Of a stretch of 36,846 nt of DNA, positions 1,238-30,527 are shown piece by piece. The notes below the pieces were generated by a model. That model searched no databases, was not told the DNA's origin, and worked only from the letters and a program-made list of their open reading frames with translations. Made by a program: the position numbers and the translations under genes. Within the stretch, counting starts at the first letter, position 1; every line of letters starts with the position of its first letter. The DNA is from a virus. The stretch is from IMG/VR virus record IMGVR_UViG_3300047409_000639, positions 1 through 36,846 of that record; one strand, 5' to 3'.

Positions 1238-1339
1238 TCAGTAATCGTCATCCCGTCTGGCCCTCTTGCCCAGCTCGTAGCCGAACAAGATGACCAGCAG
1301 GATGAGAATGACGATGATGCAAACGCCGAACAGCGTCAC
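1238..1339 (-). CDS. Tiny single-pass membrane protein (33 aa)
   Basis: GTG 1339 overlaps the stop of the upstream gene as GTGA and the frame runs 33 residues to 1238. Residues 3-21 are almost entirely hydrophobic (FGVCIIVILILLVILFGY), followed by ELGKRARRDDDY. This is one membrane span with a positively charged cytoplasmic tail by the positive-inside rule. The Shine-Dalgarno-like GGGAG lies 8 bases upstream. The role is unknown; small phage membrane peptides of this type can affect the host envelope or anchor replication factors, but nothing here decides it. Confidence 0.65.
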   Translation of the reverse strand: MTLFGVCIIVILILLVILFGYELGKRARRDDDY

Positions 1340-1815
1340 TCGGCGTCTCCCTGATTCCCCAGCGCCCCGTACTTCAGCTCGAGGGCGTCCTCCATGATCG
1401 TGACGTACATGGTCTTGACGTACGCCTTGATCCCCGACTTGCCCGACACCTCCCAGAAGTGGGGGCGCACGATGAGGTCGACGTTCGTGATGTCCGCCCA
1501 GTCGAGCATCTCGACCTGGCGCTCCTCGATCTGTTCCCGGCCCCGCGAGGTGACGATGACGATCCGAGGCGGGAAGACGTCGAACCGGCATGCCACCGGC
1601 AGCCACGGCGTGTCCCCCTCCTCCTCGAACTCCGGACGGGCCTCCAGGTGCTTGACGGGCCATCCGTCGTTGGCCATCGCCTGGGCCGTCTTCTCGTCCA
1701 GGATGACGCCGAAGGTGCGCGTCCCCTCCTTGTTGTACAGCCCCTCCTCCCCCCTGAAGTTCCTGAAGATGATGCGCACGCCCTCCATGAGGACGGTGTT
1801 GTCCTGCTGCGGCAT
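1336..1815 (-). CDS. Conserved phage protein, possible ssDNA-binding protein
   Basis: A 159-residue protein starting at ATG 1815, two bases after the end of the large upstream replication gene. The N-terminal block VRIIFRNFRGEEGLYNKEGT (13-32) followed by RTFGVILD is characteristic of a phage family that I recall being annotated as ssDNA-binding or replication-associated. Beta strands dominate the middle (DVFPPRIVIVTS and VDLIVRPHFWEV) and an acidic C-terminus ends in GDAE, as seen in several SSB-like proteins. Placement directly after the helicase-primase-polymerase gene fits a role in replication. The function is inferred from family memory and context, not from a catalytic motif. Confidence 0.55.
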   Translation of the reverse strand: MPQQDNTVLMEGVRIIFRNFRGEEGLYNKEGTRTFGVILDEKTAQAMANDGWPVKHLEARPEFEEEGDTPWLPVACRFDVFPPRIVIVTSRGREQIEERQVEMLDWADITNVDLIVRPHFWEVSGKSGIKAYVKTMYVTIMEDALELKYGALGNQGDAE

Positions 1816-1817
1816 AA

Positions 1818-4800
1818 CTACTCCTTATCGAATTGCGCGATTGAGGTCTCTGCGTCTCGCTTCAACTTCTCGAAGTACGACATGTCGATCTGCAGGTCAT
1901 CCATCTTCTCGGCGATCTCTGCGTCGATCCACAGATAACCCTTTGTCCCGGAGACATGGTGGTACTTCCCCTCGTTCATCCGGTACAGTACTCCACCGCC
2001 CGATGAAACAGGTACAAACCTGCCAGTCCGGCCAAGATGGCGCATGTTACGGAAATCCCGAGAATCCTCAGGAACACTTTCCATGTCAAGGTACATCGTC
2101 CCCTTTGTGACGTTCTTCTTCTCACAGAAGTCGTCGAACACGTGCGGCTCGTGTGAGAAGAGCTCCTTGAACACGTAGGGATGCTGGAATTGAGCGCCCG
2201 TAGCGGACCACTCGTCTCCCTTACGAGTCACGAAGACTGCGTCATTGACAAGGATGAACTCATCGTACGTTGCCTCATGCTCGAAGTCGTACCCGTACTT
2301 CTTGCCGTACTCGATGACGAAATCGATGACGTCCTGATCAGCGCCAGGGATCTTCACCGAATCCGTCTTGATGTGAGCGACGGTGTAGCCCCCCTTCCAG
2401 AGCTGGTGCTTCAGATCGATCATGAAGAGAGCTCCGCGCTTGGCCACGATGTTGTCGCGGTTGCGCAGATCCCGGAAGGGGTTGTCGAACTTGGCCGACG
2501 TCAGACCGTAGACGATGTTGATGGCGATCTTCAGGGCGTAGGCGAGAGTATCCGCAACGTCCTCATCTCCCAGATAGGGTGTGAGTCTTCCATCGAACAT
2601 CTGGCGAGCAGTATCGAAGTCGCGCCTTTTGACTGCAACACGCGCAAGCATGAGATCGTGGAATCTCTGGGTGTAGGGGCCGAAAAGATTGAGATGTACG
2701 ATACTTGCGGGGTGCATAGACGCAACGTCCAGCAACGCGACGTCATGATAATGCCCAGGCTCGGCATACACGTACCCCCCTTCGCCGGGCTCTTCGTCTC
2801 GGTAGAAGGATGCCCCGCTGTCGAAGACGTAGCCGGGGAACTCCTTACTGAGGTCGGTGTACTCGAACTTCTTGTGCGGGAACTTGTCGTCCCCGAAGAT
2901 GATCTTGGCGGTATGACGCTGAGTCGTGTCATTGACCGTGAGCCCACTGAGCTCGGCCAAGATCTGACGGGCCACGAAGTCGCCCTTGCGATCCTCGAAC
3001 ACCGCCTCTGTCGCCTTGACGTCGTTGACGCAATAGGCCACCACCCGAGGCCAGTCCGACTCATCGACCGGCTCATCCCATGGCAAGTCCAGCTCCATGT
3101 GATGGATACCAAGGTCGATCTCGAACTCCTTCAGCCCCTGGCGCTTCGTGCTGAAGTCCCAGATGTCGGCGTACGACAGACTGTAGGCCGCCGCGAAGGT
3201 GGCGTTCTTGTTGTTGTCGACGATCATCTTCTGCGACAGCTTGTACAAGGCCTCAGTGGTGTAGCCCTGACTGGCCGCATAGAGGATGTGGTTGTCGTAA
3301 CGACGGTTGTAGAACCCGACGAGCTTCATCTTGAAGAGCTCCTGCACCTCGTGGGCGCTCGGGTTCACCATCTTCACGACTTCGTCGGAACCTTGGTACT
3401 TCCAACAGATGACAAAGAGGTTGGAGTAGACTTCGACGTCGAAGAAAGCAAGACGAGAATCACCAACCTCTGCCGATGCGTCACTTGTCACCTCCTCCTC
3501 TGACGCGAACTTCATCTGCTGCACCATCTCCAAGCTGGTCTTGGATTGGTGAGTGGAGTTGATAGCGAAAGCCATGATGCGTGAGCGCATGTCCGTGACG
3601 TCGTATTTCATACCGGACTCATACGCCTCTTCGAGGATGTGATGAATGAAATCCACCGAAGGCTTCGTGCCTGGGTGGACCTCCTTCCTCAAGTTTCTCT
3701 CGATCAGCTGACGTAGACCGCGCTCACTCTTGATTGTCTTGTCTGCGAGAACTTTCGCCTCCTTCTGCTTCAGGGGAAGCCCAGACGAAATGTGCGCGAT
3801 CTCGACGTTGTTGCACCGAGAGAGCTTCCGCCTCAGCGAACTGTTACCGGTGTAGACCTTTACTTCTATACCGGGGGCATAAGCCACATCAAGGCTTCCC
3901 ACATCTCCATCGTAGAAGTAGTGGAGGTGGATTCCTTTTCCGGACTTGGAGTACTCGGCGTAGGTGGCGGGCCAAGCACTGGCGGCTTCGAGGTTTCTTT
4001 CGAGGGCTTTGTGGCCATTGAGATCCTTCAGGTCGAAATCAATACAGATGAGATTGTCAGGCACCTTGACCCAGTGCAGCTCCCGCGTGTCAATGTCTGA
4101 AAGTGTGGTCTTCACGTTCGACCACCGCTTTGCGGGAGACTCATCCTCTCCAGCCAACTGGGCCGGATAGGCTGCCAATACCTCATCCAAGAGGGACGTA
4201 TCTTCTTCCATCACAAGGGAGAACACCACACCCGACTCGTCCTTCAGCGGCTGCTTGAACTTGTCGGCGACAAACCCCTTGTAGTAGCTGCGAACCTGAT
4301 CTCCGTTCTCGAGTCGAGCTCGATCCTGGAACTCGTCGAAGTAGTTCCGCAGTTCCTCGCGCATCTTGTACATCGGCAACGGGCGCTCGATGCCTGTCTC
4401 CTGGCAGAATTCCTTATACATTGGGTAGGCCTGAGACAAATATGTGAAATTCTGCTTCTTGAAGACGTCGTAGTACGCCTCGATGAAGTTGAAGAAGATG
4501 TCTGTCTGGAGCATCATCTCGAACGGGCGGTAGCCGCTGTAGTAATTGCGACCCAATGTCTGGTACACCTCAAGGCAGTGATGCGCAATTGCCCCGAGCT
4601 CGAAGTTGATCCTGTCCATCAGCGTGTGATAGTGATTCGTGGGAATCACCACGCCGGTGGGATGGACGTCGATCAGCCTGCGGATGATCCCGGACTTGGC
4701 GTCCGAGATCTTCACCGGCTGATTGGTGCCCATGAACAGCATCGCGTTCACTCGCGCCGTGTAACCTGACTTGTACTTCTCGTTGATCAGCATGTCCTCG

Positions 4801-5546
4801 TGAGCGATGATCGAGTTCAATCGAGTGTTGTCGTCGATCCTGCTCAAGTCACCGTCATGCTGAATCGCCACCAGGGGGTTACCCTTGAACACCTCGGTAG
4901 CGAAGGTAGCATTCGAGCTGCCCAGTGCTCTTCCATCGAAAGATGTAGTATAGCCCTGGAAGACCCGCTCGATAATATTGAGAACGGTTGACTTTCCTGT
5001 TCCCGCAGATCCGTAGAAGACCAAGAATTTCTGGATCTTCTTCGAATCGCCCGCTATAACGGATCCGATCGCCCACTCGATCTTCTCTCTTTCCGAAGGG
5101 GCGTACAAGGTGCTGACCAGCTCATCCCACGCGGTGATCTCACCCGGCTCTATCGCGTAAGGAAGACGACGAGACACGTAGTCTCGCTTCTTCACTTCTG
5201 TGTTGGCGAAGACGATCTTGTTGTTCAACGGCTGGTGATTGTCCTCGACCAACTTCATGTGATTCTGAAACCGGTTCCATGAGTTGGTTCCGGCGTATCT
5301 CATGAAGCTGATGGAGCACGGAGCTTCCTTCTCCCGTGAGAACTTCTTGGCAAAGTCCTCCAACTCCGCGTCCACCAGCCTCGGCACGTCATACGAATCC
5401 TGGGACCAGAGACCTGTCTCCTCATCCCAGATGGCGTAGAAGGACTTCCCCCTGACCATGAGGTCCTTGGAATGCTCCACGATGAAGTCGGGGTAGACTA
5501 CAATCCCTTCCTTCGTGTTCTTGGTAGCAATCCGATAGAAGTCCAT
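1818..5546 (-). CDS. SF3 helicase - primase (AEP-like) - family B DNA polymerase fusion
   Basis: A single 1242-residue frame from ATG 5546. Residues about 165-300 are a D5/P4-type superfamily 3 helicase: Walker A GSAGTGKS (179-186), acidic motif near AIQHDGD (227-233) and motif C FMGTNQP (271-277). Residues about 490-600 look like an archaeo-eukaryotic primase core: ICIDFD (500-505) and SKSGKGIHLHY (533-543). Residues about 700-1160 are a family B polymerase with exonuclease motifs FFDVEVYSN (701-709), GFYNRRYDN (744-752) and YCVND (838-842), then motif A DVASMHP (939-945), motif B KIAINIVYG (1006-1014) and motif C KTDS (1060-1063). It would unwind, prime and copy phage DNA. Catalytic residues appear intact in all three parts. 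Helicase and polymerase calls are firm; the primase call is by motif shape. Confidence 0.9.
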   Translation of the reverse strand: MDFYRIATKNTKEGIVVYPDFIVEHSKDLMVRGKSFYAIWDEETGLWSQDSYDVPRLVDAELEDFAKKFSREKEAPCSISFMRYAGTNSWNRFQNHMKLVEDNHQPLNNKIVFANTEVKKRDYVSRRLPYAIEPGEITAWDELVSTLYAPSEREKIEWAIGSVIAGDSKKIQKFLVFYGSAGTGKSTVLNIIERVFQGYTTSFDGRALGSSNATFATEVFKGNPLVAIQHDGDLSRIDDNTRLNSIIAHEDMLINEKYKSGYTARVNAMLFMGTNQPVKISDAKSGIIRRLIDVHPTGVVIPTNHYHTLMDRINFELGAIAHHCLEVYQTLGRNYYSGYRPFEMMLQTDIFFNFIEAYYDVFKKQNFTYLSQAYPMYKEFCQETGIERPLPMYKMREELRNYFDEFQDRARLENGDQVRSYYKGFVADKFKQPLKDESGVVFSLVMEEDTSLLDEVLAAYPAQLAGEDESPAKRWSNVKTTLSDIDTRELHWVKVPDNLICIDFDLKDLNGHKALERNLEAASAWPATYAEYSKSGKGIHLHYFYDGDVGSLDVAYAPGIEVKVYTGNSSLRRKLSRCNNVEIAHISSGLPLKQKEAKVLADKTIKSERGLRQLIERNLRKEVHPGTKPSVDFIHHILEEAYESGMKYDVTDMRSRIMAFAINSTHQSKTSLEMVQQMKFASEEEVTSDASAEVGDSRLAFFDVEVYSNLFVICWKYQGSDEVVKMVNPSAHEVQELFKMKLVGFYNRRYDNHILYAASQGYTTEALYKLSQKMIVDNNKNATFAAAYSLSYADIWDFSTKRQGLKEFEIDLGIHHMELDLPWDEPVDESDWPRVVAYCVNDVKATEAVFEDRKGDFVARQILAELSGLTVNDTTQRHTAKIIFGDDKFPHKKFEYTDLSKEFPGYVFDSGASFYRDEEPGEGGYVYAEPGHYHDVALLDVASMHPASIVHLNLFGPYTQRFHDLMLARVAVKRRDFDTARQMFDGRLTPYLGDEDVADTLAYALKIAINIVYGLTSAKFDNPFRDLRNRDNIVAKRGALFMIDLKHQLWKGGYTVAHIKTDSVKIPGADQDVIDFVIEYGKKYGYDFEHEATYDEFILVNDAVFVTRKGDEWSATGAQFQHPYVFKELFSHEPHVFDDFCEKKNVTKGTMYLDMESVPEDSRDFRNMRHLGRTGRFVPVSSGGGVLYRMNEGKYHHVSGTKGYLWIDAEIAEKMDDLQIDMSYFEKLKRDAETSIAQFDKE

Positions 5547-6085: not shown

Positions 6086-6791
6086 CGTCGAATCGCAGTT
6101 TCCTGCGTCTCGTAGCCGAGTGCTCGATGGTCGGGTCCTCCTCCAACCCGAGGATCTTCTTCGCGTAGTGATCTCTGTCGAGGATGATCTCGTAGTCCGT
6201 CTGCAACTTGGTGTTGCGCACGTAGACGAGATGCGGATCGTTCGATCCGTGCCCGAACAGAGTCAGACTGTCCTCACCGACGACACCATCGCGAACTGTG
6301 TCCGGGATGATCTCTTCCGTCTCATCGATGAGAATGTCATCGCCCTCGAAATACGTGAGGGTGATCTGATGAGAGTACTCGGATTGCTCGAACTCCTCGA
6401 GATGGATCACGAACGGATGCTCGGGTGTCCGGTTGGACATCTCCCGATCGTAGTTCCACGGCGGAAGTGGAGGCCGGTCGAAGATGTTCTTCGTTTCCGG
6501 CTCTTCCTCGTCTTCGTCCTCCTCTGGCTCGACGGTCTTTTGATAGCCCAGATCCTTCATCACCTCTTCGAGATGAGGCTTGGGCTGCCGAGAGAGCTCC
6601 TCCTGGAACCGGACGAGCTCCATCTCCTTCGCGCGATAGTGATCCTTGACGTCCTGGATCTCCTTATCCGCGATCATGTTGTACTTCAGCTTGAGCTTCT
6701 GCCCCATACCAAAGTACATGCCTGCAGCCCCGACTCCACACCCCACGATGAAGCCGAGGCCGATCCCTTGTCCGAGGCTCAGTCTTGCCAC
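6075..6791 (-). CDS. Membrane-anchored conserved phage protein
   Basis: A 238-residue protein from GTG 6791. Residues 6-28 (LGQGIGLGFIVGCGVGAAGMYFG) form one glycine-rich N-terminal membrane span. A charged helical stretch follows to about residue 70, then an acidic linker EPEEDEDEEEPETK (88-101). A C-terminal domain contains ITLTYFEGDDILID and LTLFGHGSNDPHLVYVRN, a block found repeatedly in phage proteins of unknown function. The protein likely sits at the cytoplasmic membrane with its large domain on one side. Its start lies 13 bases inside the upstream DUF6353-like gene, so the two are translationally coupled and may act together. Confidence 0.7.
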   Translation of the reverse strand: MARLSLGQGIGLGFIVGCGVGAAGMYFGMGQKLKLKYNMIADKEIQDVKDHYRAKEMELVRFQEELSRQPKPHLEEVMKDLGYQKTVEPEEDEDEEEPETKNIFDRPPLPPWNYDREMSNRTPEHPFVIHLEEFEQSEYSHQITLTYFEGDDILIDETEEIIPDTVRDGVVGEDSLTLFGHGSNDPHLVYVRNTKLQTDYEIILDRDHYAKKILGLEEDPTIEHSATRRRKLRFDDDG

Positions 6792-7681
6792 TTGACCTTG
6801 TCCTCTGTGATCAGGTGGTAGACCACACCGTCGACGTTGAAGTCGAGCAGAATAGCCCCTTCGCGGCCGTTGACGAAGTCGATCGCGTTCTGATCTTCCC
6901 GGTTGAAGATGCCGAAGTCGATGAAGTCGTCACCGTTCCCCAGCACCCAGCCGCAGACCGCCCCCGCCTTGGTCCGATCCATCCCCAGCGAGTCGTAAAC
7001 CTCGTTGAGGAACACGTGACCTCGAGCACGCAGCATGTGGTTGGCGTACGTCTGCTGGCACTTCAGGAAGTACATGTTGTACTCCGCCTGCGGTGACCAG
7101 TTCTTGTTCAGCTGGTCGAAGAACTTGGAGTAGATCGACGGCTCGTCGAACGACACCCGGGCAACTTCCTTCTTGCGCCCGGTCTTCTCGTCCTCGATCT
7201 CCACCTTCTGCGACCCGTAGCGGAAGTCCCGATCGTCCGCCTCGCCGTACTTGGCGACCACACGCTCCCGGTATTTCTGGAAGCCCTTGTCGAGGGCCAC
7301 GTACGCCGCCGTCAGGGCTGCGTTGCGCTGCTCGAGGATGTTGTGCGACTTGGTCAGCATCCCGATGCCCGCCACACCCAGAAGGATGGAGGGACCGTAG
7401 AGCTTGCCGATGCTGACGACTGAGCGCGTGTAGATGATCGTCTTGTCGCGCTGACGATCGTCCTCCGAGTACTCCCGATGCTCAAGGCTGTTGGCGATCT
7501 TGAGATCGTTCTGCGTCGTCTCGAGAACTTCCTCGAGCTTGAGGGTGGCGCGACACGCAAGAACCGTGCTGCCCACCATGCTGGCCACACCCGCAACGAA
7601 GAGAAGCCGTGGTGAGCTCTTCTCCACCTTGAGCATGGTCCGTCCCGCTTGCTGCGAGAGACCATCCGGAAGGAACCTCAT
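6779..7681 (-). CDS. DUF6353-like membrane protein, copy 1
   Basis: A 300-residue protein from ATG 7681, overlapping the previous stop as ATGA. Residues about 24-44 (PRLLFVAGVASMVGSTVLAC) and about 93-110 (LYGPSILLGVAGIGML) are membrane spans. Between and after them are charged helices, including RNAALTAAYVALDKGFQKY (119-137), the signature I associate with the DUF6353 phage family. The C-terminal half is soluble. A shorter paralogue lies at 10001-10783 with the same architecture. The function of the family is unknown. Codon third positions here are strongly G/C, which may indicate good expression. Confidence 0.7.
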   Translation of the reverse strand: MRFLPDGLSQQAGRTMLKVEKSSPRLLFVAGVASMVGSTVLACRATLKLEEVLETTQNDLKIANSLEHREYSEDDRQRDKTIIYTRSVVSIGKLYGPSILLGVAGIGMLTKSHNILEQRNAALTAAYVALDKGFQKYRERVVAKYGEADDRDFRYGSQKVEIEDEKTGRKKEVARVSFDEPSIYSKFFDQLNKNWSPQAEYNMYFLKCQQTYANHMLRARGHVFLNEVYDSLGMDRTKAGAVCGWVLGNGDDFIDFGIFNREDQNAIDFVNGREGAILLDFNVDGVVYHLITEDKVKWQD

Positions 7682-10000: not shown

Positions 10001-10783
10001 TTAGTACAGCTTGCTGTAGTCCTGCGTCGGCCCGACCACGTAGTCGAGCACCATGCAAGGACGGTTGTCCGACGACAGAGTTGCCGAGAACACGACCTCG
10101 AGAAGGTTATTGGTGTTCCAGCCCACTTCATCCGAGTGTCGCGTCGGTGCCAGCCCGATGTGCTCGTAGAAAGAACTCAAGCTGGCGTACATGTGATGGA
10201 TGATGTCGTAGTTGACCTTGTTCTCGGCCTGCCGAATCGTCTCCATCGAACTCTGGAAATATCGTCCAGAGATGTTGTCCTTGCACAGCACGTCGCCGTT
10301 GCCGGTGATGATGACCTGCTTGTTCTCGACCGGGTCACGATTGACGCGGTCCTGGGCGATCTCATCACGAATCGCCTGTTCCTTCTTCTCTCCCAGACGC
10401 TCGACGACCTTCTCCTTGTACTCCTGGAAGGAGCGCTCGGAGATTCCATAGGCGGCAGCCAGAGCTGCGGCCTTCTTCTGGTCGATCCGGTTGGCCGTGA
10501 TGATCGAAGCGATCGTCAGGCCCCCCATGCCCATCGGCGGAATGAGTTCCGGCCAGATCAACCGCACCTTCGTTTTGACGTCGAAATCGACCTCGTCGTG
10601 ATCCGGGTGCTCGTTGAAGAAGGCGTCAGCCTCCTCCTGGAGGATCTCGGATGCCTTGAATCCGGCCCGGAACGACAGCACGGCCGTTGAGACGGTGCCC
10701 ACTACGCCGACAGCGGTCAGGAGAACGGACTTGTTCTCATGCGCGTACCGCTGGGCGTCCCTCCACATCTCACTGATGTTCAC
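10001..10783 (-). CDS. DUF6353-like membrane protein, copy 2
   Basis: A 260-residue protein from GTG 10783, overlapping the upstream gene by 14 bases. A first span LLTAVGVVGTVSTAVLSFRAG (21-41), then an acidic loop EEADAFFNEHPDHDEVDFD, a second hydrophobic segment LIPPMGMGGLTIASIITA (about 80-97) and the helix AAALAAAYGISERSFQEYKE (105-124) match the DUF6353 pattern also seen at 6779-7681. The C-terminal domain is soluble. The two copies differ in sequence outside these regions, so the duplication is old or the genes came separately. Function unknown, probably at the cytoplasmic membrane. Confidence 0.7.
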   Translation of the reverse strand: MNISEMWRDAQRYAHENKSVLLTAVGVVGTVSTAVLSFRAGFKASEILQEEADAFFNEHPDHDEVDFDVKTKVRLIWPELIPPMGMGGLTIASIITANRIDQKKAAALAAAYGISERSFQEYKEKVVERLGEKKEQAIRDEIAQDRVNRDPVENKQVIITGNGDVLCKDNISGRYFQSSMETIRQAENKVNYDIIHHMYASLSSFYEHIGLAPTRHSDEVGWNTNNLLEVVFSATLSSDNRPCMVLDYVVGPTQDYSKLY

Positions 10784-25085: not shown

Positions 25086-25883
25086 CTAAGGATTGGTAGT
25101 GGTCACGGTGTAGGTATCCGTATCCAGATACGTCGCATCCGCGTTGACGATCGTGAATCGAGTCGGCGAATCCATCGTGATGTACTGATCGGCCTGATCG
25201 ATAGCCGTCCAGGTGCCATCACCGTTGTCAACGATGACCAACGAGCCGAACTGCTCCATCAGATGAGTGATCTCATCGAACGAAGGCATCCTCGGATTGG
25301 TGTTGACCGTTCCGTAGAGAATACTTTCGATGTTCGCCAGCACAGCAGGATCAGCCGTGCGGGAGTCGATGGAAATATGAAGCGTCGGTCGGTTCCCCGA
25401 ACTCATCGGTGGGGTTCCGTTGAGAACCCACCCGAACTCGAGTGGCTGGACTTGCTCTGAGATCGACTGATGGCTGCTCTGATCCGGAACCGCCAGCAGA
25501 TTGTACAGAATATGAAGCTTGTAGGCGTAGTCTGTGCCTTCCAGATCGTTACCGATCCGCGTTCTGTACGAAAGGTCAAACATCTTAGGCATCTGCTGGT
25601 AGTAATGCATACCAGGAGCCACCTCTTCGATGCCGACAACCTCCTCGAGCTCATCCGGATAGGTGAACGCCGTGACCTTTCCAGCGAAATCACCCGGAAT
25701 CACTCGGTGGAGATACTTCACCCCGTCGAGGTAGAACGGAGCGTTCTCTGAATCGGATCCAGCTTCGACAGATCGCAAGCCGTTCCATGCTGCCGTACGA
25801 CCGTCCCGCAGATAAACGACTCCGTGATCGACTCCGGTCTCGTAGAGGCGTTCACCGACCTGATCCCACTCAAGTATTGCCAA
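25086..25883 (-). CDS. Major tail protein paralogue (second tail tube protein)
   Basis: A 265-residue protein. The start is TTG 25883 after AGGAGGTGAACG. It aligns over its length with the major tail protein at 26458-27336: LEWDQVGERLYETGVDHGVV versus LTWDQVGERTFETGVDHGVL, FTYPDELEE versus FTYPDEFAE, and YRTRIGNDLEGTDYAYKLH versus YRTRLGNDTEGTDHGYKLH. The C-terminal domain is different. Third codon positions are less G/C-biased than in the other copy, which fits lower expression. It may be a minor tube component or an adaptor for the fibre proteins encoded next. Confidence 0.8.
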   Translation of the reverse strand: MAILEWDQVGERLYETGVDHGVVYLRDGRTAAWNGLRSVEAGSDSENAPFYLDGVKYLHRVIPGDFAGKVTAFTYPDELEEVVGIEEVAPGMHYYQQMPKMFDLSYRTRIGNDLEGTDYAYKLHILYNLLAVPDQSSHQSISEQVQPLEFGWVLNGTPPMSSGNRPTLHISIDSRTADPAVLANIESILYGTVNTNPRMPSFDEITHLMEQFGSLVIVDNGDGTWTAIDQADQYITMDSPTRFTIVNADATYLDTDTYTVTTTNP

Positions 25884-26457: not shown

Positions 26458-27336
26458 CTAGTAGTCGAACGTCCAGTCGTCGTCGCCCTCGACCACGTGC
26501 CCGGCAGTGGCATGGGCCTGGACGTTGGAGCTCTGCCCCGTGGTCATCGCGGGCTGAGCGCCCGGCGACGCGTCCTGATCGTTGACCGTCCACGTCACGC
26601 CGGTGACGGTCGGGAGGGTCACGACGTGGGTGGCCGGGTTGTACGACGGGGCGTTGGCCCCGGTCAGCCGGACCGGAGCGTTGGCGCCGCCGAACAGAGA
26701 GATGACCTCGGCGGGAAGCGGCAGACGGGCATCGACCGATGCCGACCCGTAGAGGATGTCCTCGAGATCGGACAGGTCGGACGCGTCGACCGTGGTGGAG
26801 TCGATCGTCATGAGAGCCGTCGGCTTGTAGCCCGCCACCGGCACCGGGCTGGTCGTCACCTCCCACGAGAACGAGATCGCCTCGGGCGAGTCGTTGATGG
26901 TGCCGTAGGCCTTCTCCGACGGAGCGGCCTGGGCGCCGTAGACGAGGTGGAGCTTGTAGCCGTGATCGGTGCCTTCGGTGTCGTTGCCGAGCCGCGTCCG
27001 GTAGCAGAGACCGAACTGCTTGCGTCCCTGCTGGCCGAGCGTGACACCCGGCGACGGAACCGCCGTGCCGTCGCACTCCGCGAACTCGTCCGGGTAGGTG
27101 AAGGCCTCGATCGTCGCGCCGAACTCCTCGGCCGAGATGAGGTTCAGGTACTTGATGTTGTCCGCGTACTGCGGCGAGGACTCCGCGCCCGACGGCGACT
27201 CGGTGACGGTCGTCAGACCGTTCCAGGCCACGCCATCCTCGTACGCACCCGAAGCGTCGGGGAGATAGAGGACGCCGTGATCGACGCCGGTCTCGAAGGT
27301 CCGCTCGCCGACCTGATCCCAGGTCAGTGATGCCAT
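26458..27336 (-). CDS. Major tail tube protein with C-terminal Ig-like module
   Basis: A 292-residue protein from ATG 27336. The N-terminal about 220 residues are the tail tube fold (shared with the paralogue at 25086-25883). After residue about 228 follows an Ig-like module: NAPSYNPATHVVTLPTVTGV, TWTVNDQDASPGAQ and ATAGHVVEGDDDWTFDY. The same module type ends the major capsid protein at 27959-29920. Third codon positions are very G/C-rich, as in the capsid gene, consistent with high expression. It sits between the terminator-like protein and the chaperone as in standard siphovirus order. Confidence 0.9.
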   Translation of the reverse strand: MASLTWDQVGERTFETGVDHGVLYLPDASGAYEDGVAWNGLTTVTESPSGAESSPQYADNIKYLNLISAEEFGATIEAFTYPDEFAECDGTAVPSPGVTLGQQGRKQFGLCYRTRLGNDTEGTDHGYKLHLVYGAQAAPSEKAYGTINDSPEAISFSWEVTTSPVPVAGYKPTALMTIDSTTVDASDLSDLEDILYGSASVDARLPLPAEVISLFGGANAPVRLTGANAPSYNPATHVVTLPTVTGVTWTVNDQDASPGAQPAMTTGQSSNVQAHATAGHVVEGDDDWTFDY

Positions 27337-27339
27337 GTT

Positions 27340-27645
27340 CTACGTTCCTTTCCAGTACAAGTTGTACACATCGTGGTTGAGATCGTCAGCAGCGAAGTAC
27401 CGATTGAATCGGCAATACTGAAACCTCGCTACCAATCCGGGGATGATGCTGTCCGGGTCTCGATCGATGACCGTCACTTCGTACTGAGGAATCCCCAGCA
27501 TCAACTCGTTGTCCGCCCACTCCTCGTACTTCGCGTTACGTCGGTAGACGATGCACGGATACACCATCTGAATGTTCGATGGCGGCTGGAAGTAGACGTT
27601 CGGACAGATGACTTCAAGGGCTTCCTGCAGCTGCGCGCGGGCCAT
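27340..27645 (-). CDS. Tail completion or terminator protein
   Basis: A 101-residue protein from ATG 27645, with GGGGGAGGTGTACA upstream. It contains LQEALEVICPNVYFQPPSNI, YPCIVYRRNAKYEEWADNEL and VTVIDRDPDSIIPGL, typical of small tail-terminator or neck proteins (gpU-like fold) encoded directly before the tail tube gene. The start lies within the preceding gene by 32 bases. Family assignment is by pattern and position. Confidence 0.75.
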   Translation of the reverse strand: MARAQLQEALEVICPNVYFQPPSNIQMVYPCIVYRRNAKYEEWADNELMLGIPQYEVTVIDRDPDSIIPGLVARFQYCRFNRYFAADDLNHDVYNLYWKGT

Positions 27646-27952
27646 TGTACACCTCCCCCAAACGCAAGATGAGGCGGGGAAACTGAACCTCGACTTCCGT
27701 CACGGTCCAAGCAACCCCACCCCATTCCACAAAGCGGATGGCGAAGTAATTCTCGTTGGCATGCGCATCAGCAACGATGCTGATCGAGTTTGTGACACCG
27801 ACGTCCCTGTTCACCTTCTCTGCTTCGGAGAGACGGCGCGCATCACGAACCACGTCCCCGTAATACGAGAGCTCGGTGATCACTTCGGTGTAGACGCCAG
27901 GCGCAGTTTCCTCCTGGCTACCGAACCCGACCAAGCCAAAGAACCTCGCCAT
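27614..27952 (-). CDS. Head closure / head-tail joining protein
   Basis: A 112-residue protein from ATG 27952, six bases after the end of the capsid gene. MARFFGLVGFGSQEETAPGV, ITELSYYGDVVRDARRL and NSISIVADAHANENYFAIRF are typical of the small neck proteins found between major capsid and tail terminator genes. Beta-strand-rich throughout. It probably closes the portal channel or links it to the tail. Exact equivalent (gp16 or gp17 type) cannot be decided. Confidence 0.7.
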   Translation of the reverse strand: MARFFGLVGFGSQEETAPGVYTEVITELSYYGDVVRDARRLSEAEKVNRDVGVTNSISIVADAHANENYFAIRFVEWGGVAWTVTEVEVQFPRLILRLGEVYNGPRAAAGSP

Positions 27953-27958
27953 TGGCGA

Positions 27959-29920
27959 CTACGGACGGTTCGAGAAGGTCCAGCTGTCCTGCTGGTTCGT
28001 CTCGAAGTAGTTGCCAGCCGTCGGGTTGGCCTGGATCGTCAGCGACGTGCCGTCGGGGACGTTGACCGTGGAGCCCTGCGCCGTGGTGGCGCCGGTGTCC
28101 GTGCGCGAGTACGTCACGCCGGTCTGGGTCGGGATCGTGATGTCACCCGACGTCTCGTCGTACGTAGGCGCGGTCGGAACGCGCAGCGTGTCGCTGGCGC
28201 CGACCTTCTTGACGTTGACGGCCGACCGGATCTTGGTCAGCGCACCCGAGAGCCGGGTCTCGATCAGGTACTTGTACTGGTTGTAGTCGATGTCGAAGTC
28301 GTCGAACATCGAGACGTCGCCGCCCCGATCCGCGCCGACCGTGTAGTCGGTCAGGTTGACGATGATGCCGACCAGATCGACCTCGCCCTCCATGACCTCG
28401 ACGGCGACGATGGACGCGACGCCCATCTCCGCGGCCAGCTCGGACGCGGTGCGCCACAGCCGCCGCTGCATGCCGTCCTTCGCGAGCAGGGCCGACGTGA
28501 TCCACGCCTGGGTGGTGTAGAACGTCGGCGAGCCGGACCCCTTGTAGAAGACCATGTTGCGCATGACGGCCTCGACCTGCTCGACCGGCGTCGCGTCGGA
28601 CTGGACGAACACCGTCGCGGCGTACAGGTCGTGATCGTTGGCGATGGAGCGGATGCCCGCGCCCTCGCTCGCTCCGGACGGGTCCTTGATCTTGTCCTCG
28701 TCGTCGACCGCACGGCCGTCGCCGATCAGGATCGCGCGCGCGAGCTCCTCCTCGAGCATGAGGCGCATCTCGGCCTTCATCCAGGCCACGACGTCGAAGT
28801 CGGTGATGTCGACGATGTCGTCGCGATCCAGCTTCTGCTTCTTGTAGATCGTCGCGGGCGAGGTCGACCGCGTGGAGACGCTGAAGTACTCCTCCTTCTT
28901 GAAGGAGCCCTTGATGTAGCCCCGCGCCCTGGCCTCGTCGAACGTGATGTCGGCGACGAAGTTCTTGACGCGGCTGAACGGCGAGTGGCGGGTCCCGTTG
29001 ATGACGGACTTGACCCACTCCATCCGCCGAGAGTCGAACTCCGGCTGGGCGGACACCGCTCGGGCATCCGGGAACAGGATGTCGAGGTTGTCGATGCCGT
29101 GCTGGAGCGCGTAGTGCTCGACCGCTTCCTTCAGGGATCCGCGACGGGATGCGTCCTCGACGATGCCCCTGATGGCGTCGTGGCTGAGGTGCTGCCGCTC
29201 CTGCGTCTCCTTGCCGGTCTTCTCGCGCTCCGCCTCGAAAGCGTTGCGGCTCATGTGACGGGTCTCCTTCTCGTCGTCGGTGGTGGTAGTGGCGGATTGA
29301 GCCGCCGCGCTGCCGGTGTCCTCCTTGGCGGACTCGAGAGCGGCGCCGACCATGTAGTGGACGACCTCCTTCTGCTCGGCCGTCATGGAGTCGTAAACGT
29401 CCTGCACGGTCGACTCGTTGTCGTCCGTCTTGGTGGCGCTGCCCTTGTCCTCGTGCTCCAGCTCGAGACCGGTGTGGATGATGGCCTCGTCGTCGAGACG
29501 GACCTGCTCCTCGCCGTGCTGAAGAACGATGTTGTCGATGAAGGCGCCGGGGTTGGCACCCGCCAGAACCAGCGACACCTCTCGGATGACGCCGTGCATG
29601 ACCGCCTGGGCCTTCTCGAGAAGACCGTTGGCGTAGATGGAGAGCGACTTGATGTCGTCGTGCTCGATGAGCTGCTTGGCGTTCTGGGCCCGCTCGGTCT
29701 CGTTGAAGAAACCGAACCCGTACACGCCATCGTCCCGGTGCTCGAGCTCGAAGTGGCCGAGCACGTTCGCGGGATCGTCGTGATTGTGCTGCCACACCAT
29801 CGGAACCTGGGTCCCGTCCTGGTGCTTGAAGGCCTCGGCGGTGATCGTGCGACCGTCGGAGCACTTGATGCCGAACTTCGTGACGTAGCCACTGAAGTCG
29901 GCCTTCGTCTTCACTGCCAT
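27959..29920 (-). CDS. Fused capsid maturation protease and major capsid protein
   Basis: A 653-residue protein from ATG 29920. Residues about 1-135 are an HK97-type prohead protease: VPMVWQHNHDDPANVLGHFE (39-58, His 45) and KSLSIYANG (91-99, Ser 94), with SLVLAGANPGAFID after it. Residues about 136-270 are acidic and helical, as in a scaffold delta domain. The HK97-fold capsid protein follows (FDSRRMEWVKSVINGTRHS, FSVSTRSTSPATIYKK, TTQAWITSALL). Residues about 585-653 form an Ig-like C-terminal module (APTYDETSGDITIPTQTGV, TAGNYFETNQQDSWTF), shared with the tail tube protein. Very G/C-rich third positions suggest high expression. Fusion of protease and capsid protein is known in some phages. 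Confidence 0.92.
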   Translation of the reverse strand: MAVKTKADFSGYVTKFGIKCSDGRTITAEAFKHQDGTQVPMVWQHNHDDPANVLGHFELEHRDDGVYGFGFFNETERAQNAKQLIEHDDIKSLSIYANGLLEKAQAVMHGVIREVSLVLAGANPGAFIDNIVLQHGEEQVRLDDEAIIHTGLELEHEDKGSATKTDDNESTVQDVYDSMTAEQKEVVHYMVGAALESAKEDTGSAAAQSATTTTDDEKETRHMSRNAFEAEREKTGKETQERQHLSHDAIRGIVEDASRRGSLKEAVEHYALQHGIDNLDILFPDARAVSAQPEFDSRRMEWVKSVINGTRHSPFSRVKNFVADITFDEARARGYIKGSFKKEEYFSVSTRSTSPATIYKKQKLDRDDIVDITDFDVVAWMKAEMRLMLEEELARAILIGDGRAVDDEDKIKDPSGASEGAGIRSIANDHDLYAATVFVQSDATPVEQVEAVMRNMVFYKGSGSPTFYTTQAWITSALLAKDGMQRRLWRTASELAAEMGVASIVAVEVMEGEVDLVGIIVNLTDYTVGADRGGDVSMFDDFDIDYNQYKYLIETRLSGALTKIRSAVNVKKVGASDTLRVPTAPTYDETSGDITIPTQTGVTYSRTDTGATTAQGSTVNVPDGTSLTIQANPTAGNYFETNQQDSWTFSNRP

Positions 29921-29954
29921 TTTGACAGTCCTTTCGTGGTCTTTACTTCGTGGC

Positions 29955-30527
29955 TTACGCCAGTGCCTTCAGCTTGGCTTGAGCAGTGGCGAGTTCCTGC
30001 TTCGCCGCGTCGACCTGCTTCTTCAGGCTATCGACCTTGCTCGAGGTCGAAGAATCTCCCTTGCTGTCTCCTCCTCCCGCCTTGGATCGAGCTGCTTTGG
30101 CCTTGGTCTTGAGTTCGGTCTTGTGACTCTCGCGGTACTTCTTTGCTTCGCGAGCGTCCTTCGACTTCTCAGCTGCCGTCGGCTTCTTCTTGGCGTCAGA
30201 CTCCGACTTCTTGGCCGCGGCCATCGCGTCCTTGAGCTTCTTGTTCAGATCTGAGAGCTTGGCCTGCGCCGCAGCAACCTTCTTCTGAGCGTAAGCCTTC
30301 AGCTCTTTCTTCTGCTGAGGGTTCAGATCCTTGACCTGGGTATGGGCAGGCTTGGCCGCCTTCTTGCCAAACTGCCCTCGAGAACCGAGACCAGCCATCG
30401 CTGGCGGCGGAGCAGCACCCGCTTTCCGACCCTTCAGCTTCCTCGTCCGAAGGTAGTACTCGTGAGCCTTCTTCGGATCATAGGGAGCTGAAGCGTGCAT
30501 GAGGATCGTGCCGTCAGGCAGCCTCAT
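29955..30527 (-). CDS. Lysine/alanine-rich coiled-coil protein, scaffold-like
   Basis: A 190-residue protein from ATG 30527, with GGAGGTGCCCA upstream and a 14-base overlap with the portal gene. It begins MRLPDGTILMHASAPYDPKK and contains YDPKKAHEYYLRTRKLKGRK (16-35), a motif that I have seen in other phage head-operon proteins. The rest is Lys, Ala and Ser-rich with coiled coils (QKKVAAAQAKLSDLNKKLKD, and near the end VDSLKKQVDAAKQELATAQA). Between portal and capsid genes, it fits a scaffold or internal head protein. The function is inferred from position and composition. Confidence 0.7.
   Translation of the reverse strand: MRLPDGTILMHASAPYDPKKAHEYYLRTRKLKGRKAGAAPPPAMAGLGSRGQFGKKAAKPAHTQVKDLNPQQKKELKAYAQKKVAAAQAKLSDLNKKLKDAMAAAKKSESDAKKKPTAAEKSKDAREAKKYRESHKTELKTKAKAARSKAGGGDSKGDSSTSSKVDSLKKQVDAAKQELATAQAKLKALA

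Follow-up and report, generated by a model that had tools for sequence, protein, structure and literature searches.

HelPrimPolB proteins are a group named in a 2020 survey of family B DNA polymerases (PolB), which describes their motif C and KxY motif as strongly unlike those of other PolBs and notes that fusion of the members to an SF3 helicase and a PrimPol had already been demonstrated (PMC7544198). GP55 of Lactococcus phage 1706, encoded by orf55 of EU081845 (L009; Fremauxvirus), was purified in 2025 and displayed helicase, RNA primase, polymerase and 3′-5′ exonuclease activities (PMC12205980). In that report, the helicase was UTP/dTTP-dependent, the RNA primase recognized 5′-CCAAC-3′ as a strong site, priming required the aHD, and the protein copied ssM13 de novo. 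Only RNA primers were made, and deletion or mutation of PolB abolished the polymerase activity. GP55 was mostly a dimer, and its primase and polymerase could also cooperate in trans (PMC12205980).

The 36,846-base stretch of DNA analysed here, hereafter the window, is a virus record classed linear and therefore possibly a fragment. An open frame of 1242 codons on its minus strand (1818..5546; ATG start, stop codon at 1818-1820) almost certainly specifies the main DNA replicase of the phage itself, a HelPrimPolB of the GP55 type. The extent of this uninterrupted frame was as originally predicted, with the strand now added. A strong Shine-Dalgarno-like run stood before the start (AAAGGAGGGGT-ATG), and third-position G+C stayed at 0.69-0.82 over nine successive blocks, without a break at the domain joints. 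The PHROG family phrog_4210 (‘DNA polymerase’) covered residues 1-1240 with profile positions 1-1279 of 1304 at 1895.9 bits, a full-length profile match far beyond chance. The neighbouring ORF of the same orientation, which starts just beyond the replicase stop (1336..1815, minus strand), encodes a predicted phage ssDNA-binding protein (Pfam PF24083, 6.4e-55; phrog_4787), and the large terminase, portal, head protease, major tail protein, tape measure and holin genes are oriented likewise. Elsewhere in the window, two phrog_2645 genes (major tail protein family) lie near each other at 25086-25883 and 26458-27336, and two phrog_2152 genes, from a family of unknown function, at 6779-7681 and 10001-10783, the first also matching Pfam DUF6353. 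An 834-aa open frame on the plus strand (27608-30112), antisense to the head maturation protease gene (27959-29920, minus strand), is probably a shadow of G+C-rich coding.

A tblastn search of 50,697 phage records, in which a phage present in both GenBank and RefSeq is counted twice, gave a match of some kind in 420 records, and in 252 a place spanned at least 80% of the protein; sub-queries with the helicase plus AEP, the PolB and the AEP plus aHD parts reached the same coverage in 252, 252 and 253 records, respectively. The homologues came from phages of Arthrobacter, Gordonia, Streptomyces, Lactococcus, Curtobacterium, Rhodococcus, Microbacterium and Faecalibacterium, as well as from human-associated contigs. 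A single open frame of at least 1150 aa with the same domain order was present at 83/83 viral-contig loci, which comprised three loci from one search and the best 80 of at least 592 from a second, the latter biased to near relatives. The tested catalytic positions were invariant across these loci except for D231, K1006 and Y648. Thirteen named phage records carried a single annotated CDS of 1235-1348 aa, again in this order. The annotations given to this architecture vary: putative helicase, helicase/polymerase, DNA polymerase, DNA primase/polymerase and hypothetical protein. The 15-row alignment used below (A1) contained the window protein, 13 hand-picked matching phage records and one viral contig; the AEP plus aHD alignment (A2) held 74 of the 83 viral-contig loci at under 85% mutual identity, and hand-thinning left 51 of those 74 in the PolB alignment (A3) and 38 in the helicase alignment (A4).

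The N-terminal region and SF3 helicase span residues 1-440 (4227..5546, minus strand). Pfam DUF5906 matched residues 177-290 (9.7e-12), and a Pox_D5-like match at residues 352-409 was below the Pfam cut-off. The Walker A motif GSAGTGKS (residues 179-186; 4989..5012, minus strand) and FMGTNQP at 271-277 were located exactly as first quoted, as were the primase and exonuclease motifs given below. The helicase profile built from the 15-row alignment matched the solved chain 7ola (‘DNA primase’) over profile positions 154-436 (E 2.2e-12) as well as the primase chain 6k9e, which we take to be the NrS-1 primase entry (E 6.2e-5). K185, N275, R289 and R290 were kept in 83/83 viral-contig loci and D231 in 81/83, with E in the other two; from the alignment, D231 was assigned as the putative Walker B acid, N275 as sensor 1, and R289/R290 as the arginine finger. 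The helicase evidence comes from sequence profiles and alignment, and the predicted structures cover residues 436-700 and 690-1242.

At the other end of the chain, residues 697-1242 (1821..3458, minus strand) form a family B DNA polymerase with a 3′-5′ exonuclease, as indicated by AlphaFold2, Foldseek and hmmsearch. The exonuclease motifs FDVE (702-705) and YCVND (838-842) were followed by DVASMHP at 940-946, KIAINIVYG at 1006-1014 and KTDS at 1060-1063, and the catalytic positions were D703, E705, D751 and D842 together with D940, K1006, Y1013 and D1062. The AlphaFold2 model of residues 690-1242, built with 52 sequences (pLDDT 90.8, pTM 0.84), gave 234 Foldseek matches in the PDB at E ≤ 0.001, and the 50 listed among them were family B polymerases, including 9N, E. 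coli Pol II, Pol alpha and KOD. Structure alignment of this model reached Z 17.0 (rmsd 5.9, 461 aligned), with chains of the herpesvirus helicase-primase complex in 2/50 rows, and hmmsearch with the PolB profile found Pol II at E 3.1e-7. The exonuclease residues D703 and E705 and the motif A residue D940 were kept in 83/83 viral-contig loci, and K1006 in 81/83 with R in the other two. Motif C was KTDS in all rows of the 15-row alignment (15/15), its K1060 being present in 83/83 loci.

Between these parts, residues 449-595 (3762..4202, minus strand) correspond to an AEP (PriS-like) primase catalytic core containing ICIDFD (500-505) and SKSGKGIHLHY (533-543). The AlphaFold2 model of residues 436-700, built with 75 sequences, had a pLDDT of 89.7 and a pTM of 0.66, and 10/10 of its Foldseek matches at E ≤ 0.001 were AEP primase-polymerases (phage NrS-1 and the ORF904/pRN1 group). 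VIA-align to the NrS-1 primase-polymerase gave Z 9.6 and rmsd 3.5 over 141 aligned residues, model residues 14-160 being residues 449-595 of the window protein. The predicted structure therefore places an AEP primase fold in the replicase, and its match to the NrS-1 and ORF904 primase-polymerases bore out the primase fold on which the original prediction had staked its reading. Eight AEP residues (D503, D505, H540, H542, E561, K563, R572 and R573) were kept in 83/83 viral-contig loci. Pfam Prim-Pol (PF09250) scored 13.7 bits at residues 496-545, under its cut-off of 22.8, so the region does not count as PF09250 despite its AEP fold. Searching the PDB by sequence with the AEP profile found no AEP, for which reason structural comparison was used; the top rows were N-myristoyltransferases at E ≥ 0.37, which we took as chance matches. 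Five helices after the core, extending to about residue 681, correspond by alignment and model to the aHD of GP55 (all-helical domain, residues 596-681; 3504..3761, minus strand), and in structure alignment these helices matched unrelated helical chains only, at Z 5.5 or less. Y648 was Y in 73 and F in 10 of the 83 viral-contig loci and F660 was kept in 83/83; in the 15-row alignment, Y648 was replaced by F in one row (L007) and F660 by R in another (L017).

Profiles, folds and conserved residues agreed in supporting the predicted helicase, primase and proofreading PolB in one chain, in that order. A sequencing or assembly error fusing two or three separate genes might be suspected in a virus record of 36,846 bases that is possibly a fragment, yet its probability is negligible: the one frame and the same order recurred in 83/83 loci and 13 named phage records, the region around residues 600-700, singled out earlier for such a check, contained no frameshift, and the at least 80% coverage in 252/50,697 phage records led us to reject this artefact. 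It is likewise extremely unlikely that the AEP is inactive and that the protein is a helicase-polymerase using host-made primers. The weak Prim-Pol score and the sequence search of the PDB that returned no AEP would fit such a degenerate primase, but the eight residues conserved in all 83 loci and the fold match to active AEPs disfavour it, and GP55, which carries the same residues, makes RNA primers (PMC12205980).

The best fold match being the NrS-1 primase-polymerase, the AEP could alternatively be a true primase-polymerase that makes DNA itself, as in NrS-1, with the PolB secondary. This reading is very unlikely, since GP55 makes RNA primers only and loses its polymerase activity without a functional PolB (PMC12205980). 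The preferred reading remains a GP55-type replicase in which the AEP primes and the PolB synthesizes.

The replicase gene of Bifidobacterium phage BitterVaud1 (L018, 2663-7293) was the only split copy among the phage records opened. The break falls after the exonuclease and before polymerase motif A: phrog_4210 positions 1-949 are matched by gene 50 (959 aa) and positions 953-1288 by gene 52 (368 aa), and the two are separated by a 213-aa gene of unknown family. This 213-aa gene matched neither Pfam nor PHROG and did not turn up in any other phage record, and a suspected intron at the split gave no Rfam match at the gathering threshold in L018. The split copy offers a test for the family, namely whether the replicase still works as two chains.

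From its homology with GP55, we infer the enzymatic activities, NTP preferences, oligomeric state and in vivo role of the window protein. Its N-terminal SF3 domain would keep protein chains together and unwind the duplex ahead, and the AEP core with the helical aHD would prime the single strand with short RNAs. The C-terminal PolB would take the primer over, extend it with proofreading and, with help from the helicase, displace the downstream strand, while the ssDNA-binding protein from the adjoining gene would coat the exposed strand. Priming and extension on circular ssDNA, suggested as an assay along with the original prediction, have already been shown for the homologue GP55 (PMC12205980). 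A one-chain protein might also have the fixed stoichiometry supposed earlier, a suggestion to be set against the mainly dimeric state and trans cooperation described there for GP55 (PMC12205980).

Among the systems compared, the NrS-1 primase-polymerase shares with the window protein the AEP fold (Z 9.6), and its helicase part was hit by the helicase profile (6k9e). Its primase comes first and its helicase second, and it is not known to have a PolB domain. Listeria phage P40, one example of the functions in separate genes, encodes a PolB and a helicase of the DUF5906 type in the two adjoining genes gp31 and gp32; the N-terminal AEP-like motifs of this helicase were identified by eye, and the primase part precedes the helicase, whereas the window protein is one chain with the helicase first. 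The ReqiPepy6 lead of the original prediction was right: gp072 of Rhodococcus phage ReqiPepy6 was a full-length homologue, with 62% identity to the window protein. Full-length homologues were also encoded by genes annotated ‘DNA primase/polymerase’ in phages of Gordonia, Arthrobacter, Streptomyces, Curtobacterium and Microbacterium, and identity in these aligned rows ranged from 62% (ReqiPepy6) to 52% (Curtobacterium AddiRose). The GenBank note for gp072 reads ‘Two domains, N-terminal (COG3378 C-terminal primase domain) and C-terminal (COG0417, PolB)’, listing two domains rather than three, and the ‘primase/polymerase’ records that we opened mention no helicase.

GP55 (1317 aa) and the window protein (1242 aa) are 41% identical and alike in their four domains and the order of these. 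The GP55 residues K189, D509, Y655, F667, D712, E714 and D949, all studied by mutation (PMC12205980), aligned with K185, D505, Y648, F660, D703, E705 and D940 of the window protein and were identical at 7/7 positions. The two proteins differ in Walker B, which is PML-IDADSD in GP55 and PLVAIQHDGD in the window protein (residues 224-233; window 4848-4877). The latter segment was exact in 70/83 viral-contig loci, with Q229 in 82/83; the GP55, P118, CHPC971 and saliva phage D_HF5_2C segments were one residue shorter (I-D-x-D-(S/T)-D), and the Correa, Damascus and 29632 rows had D at the Q229 position without the one-residue deletion. Because Walker B is one residue longer (A-I-Q-H-D-G-D versus I-D-A-D-S-D or similar), the helicase of the window protein's clade may, as a tentative possibility, use a nucleotide other than the UTP/dTTP of GP55. 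With only 41% identity and a differing Walker B, UTP/dTTP dependence and such details may not carry over, and the variants offer a family-wide test of whether helicase nucleotide use tracks them.

A new architecture was rejected, since HelPrimPolB was named in 2020 (PMC7544198) and GP55 assayed in 2025 (PMC12205980). With SF3 helicase, AEP and PolB following one another in one chain, the window protein fits the HelPrimPolB definition, a PolB whose N terminus is fused to an SF3 helicase and a PrimPol (PMC7544198), with no known difference from the group. It is an ordinary addition to the already known HelPrimPolB/GP55-type family, a family characterized by a position in the EpsilonN-like clade of the PolB tree. 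The family gains another relative, nearest to actinophage proteins, in which all mapped residues of the GP55 mutation study are kept across deep divergence.
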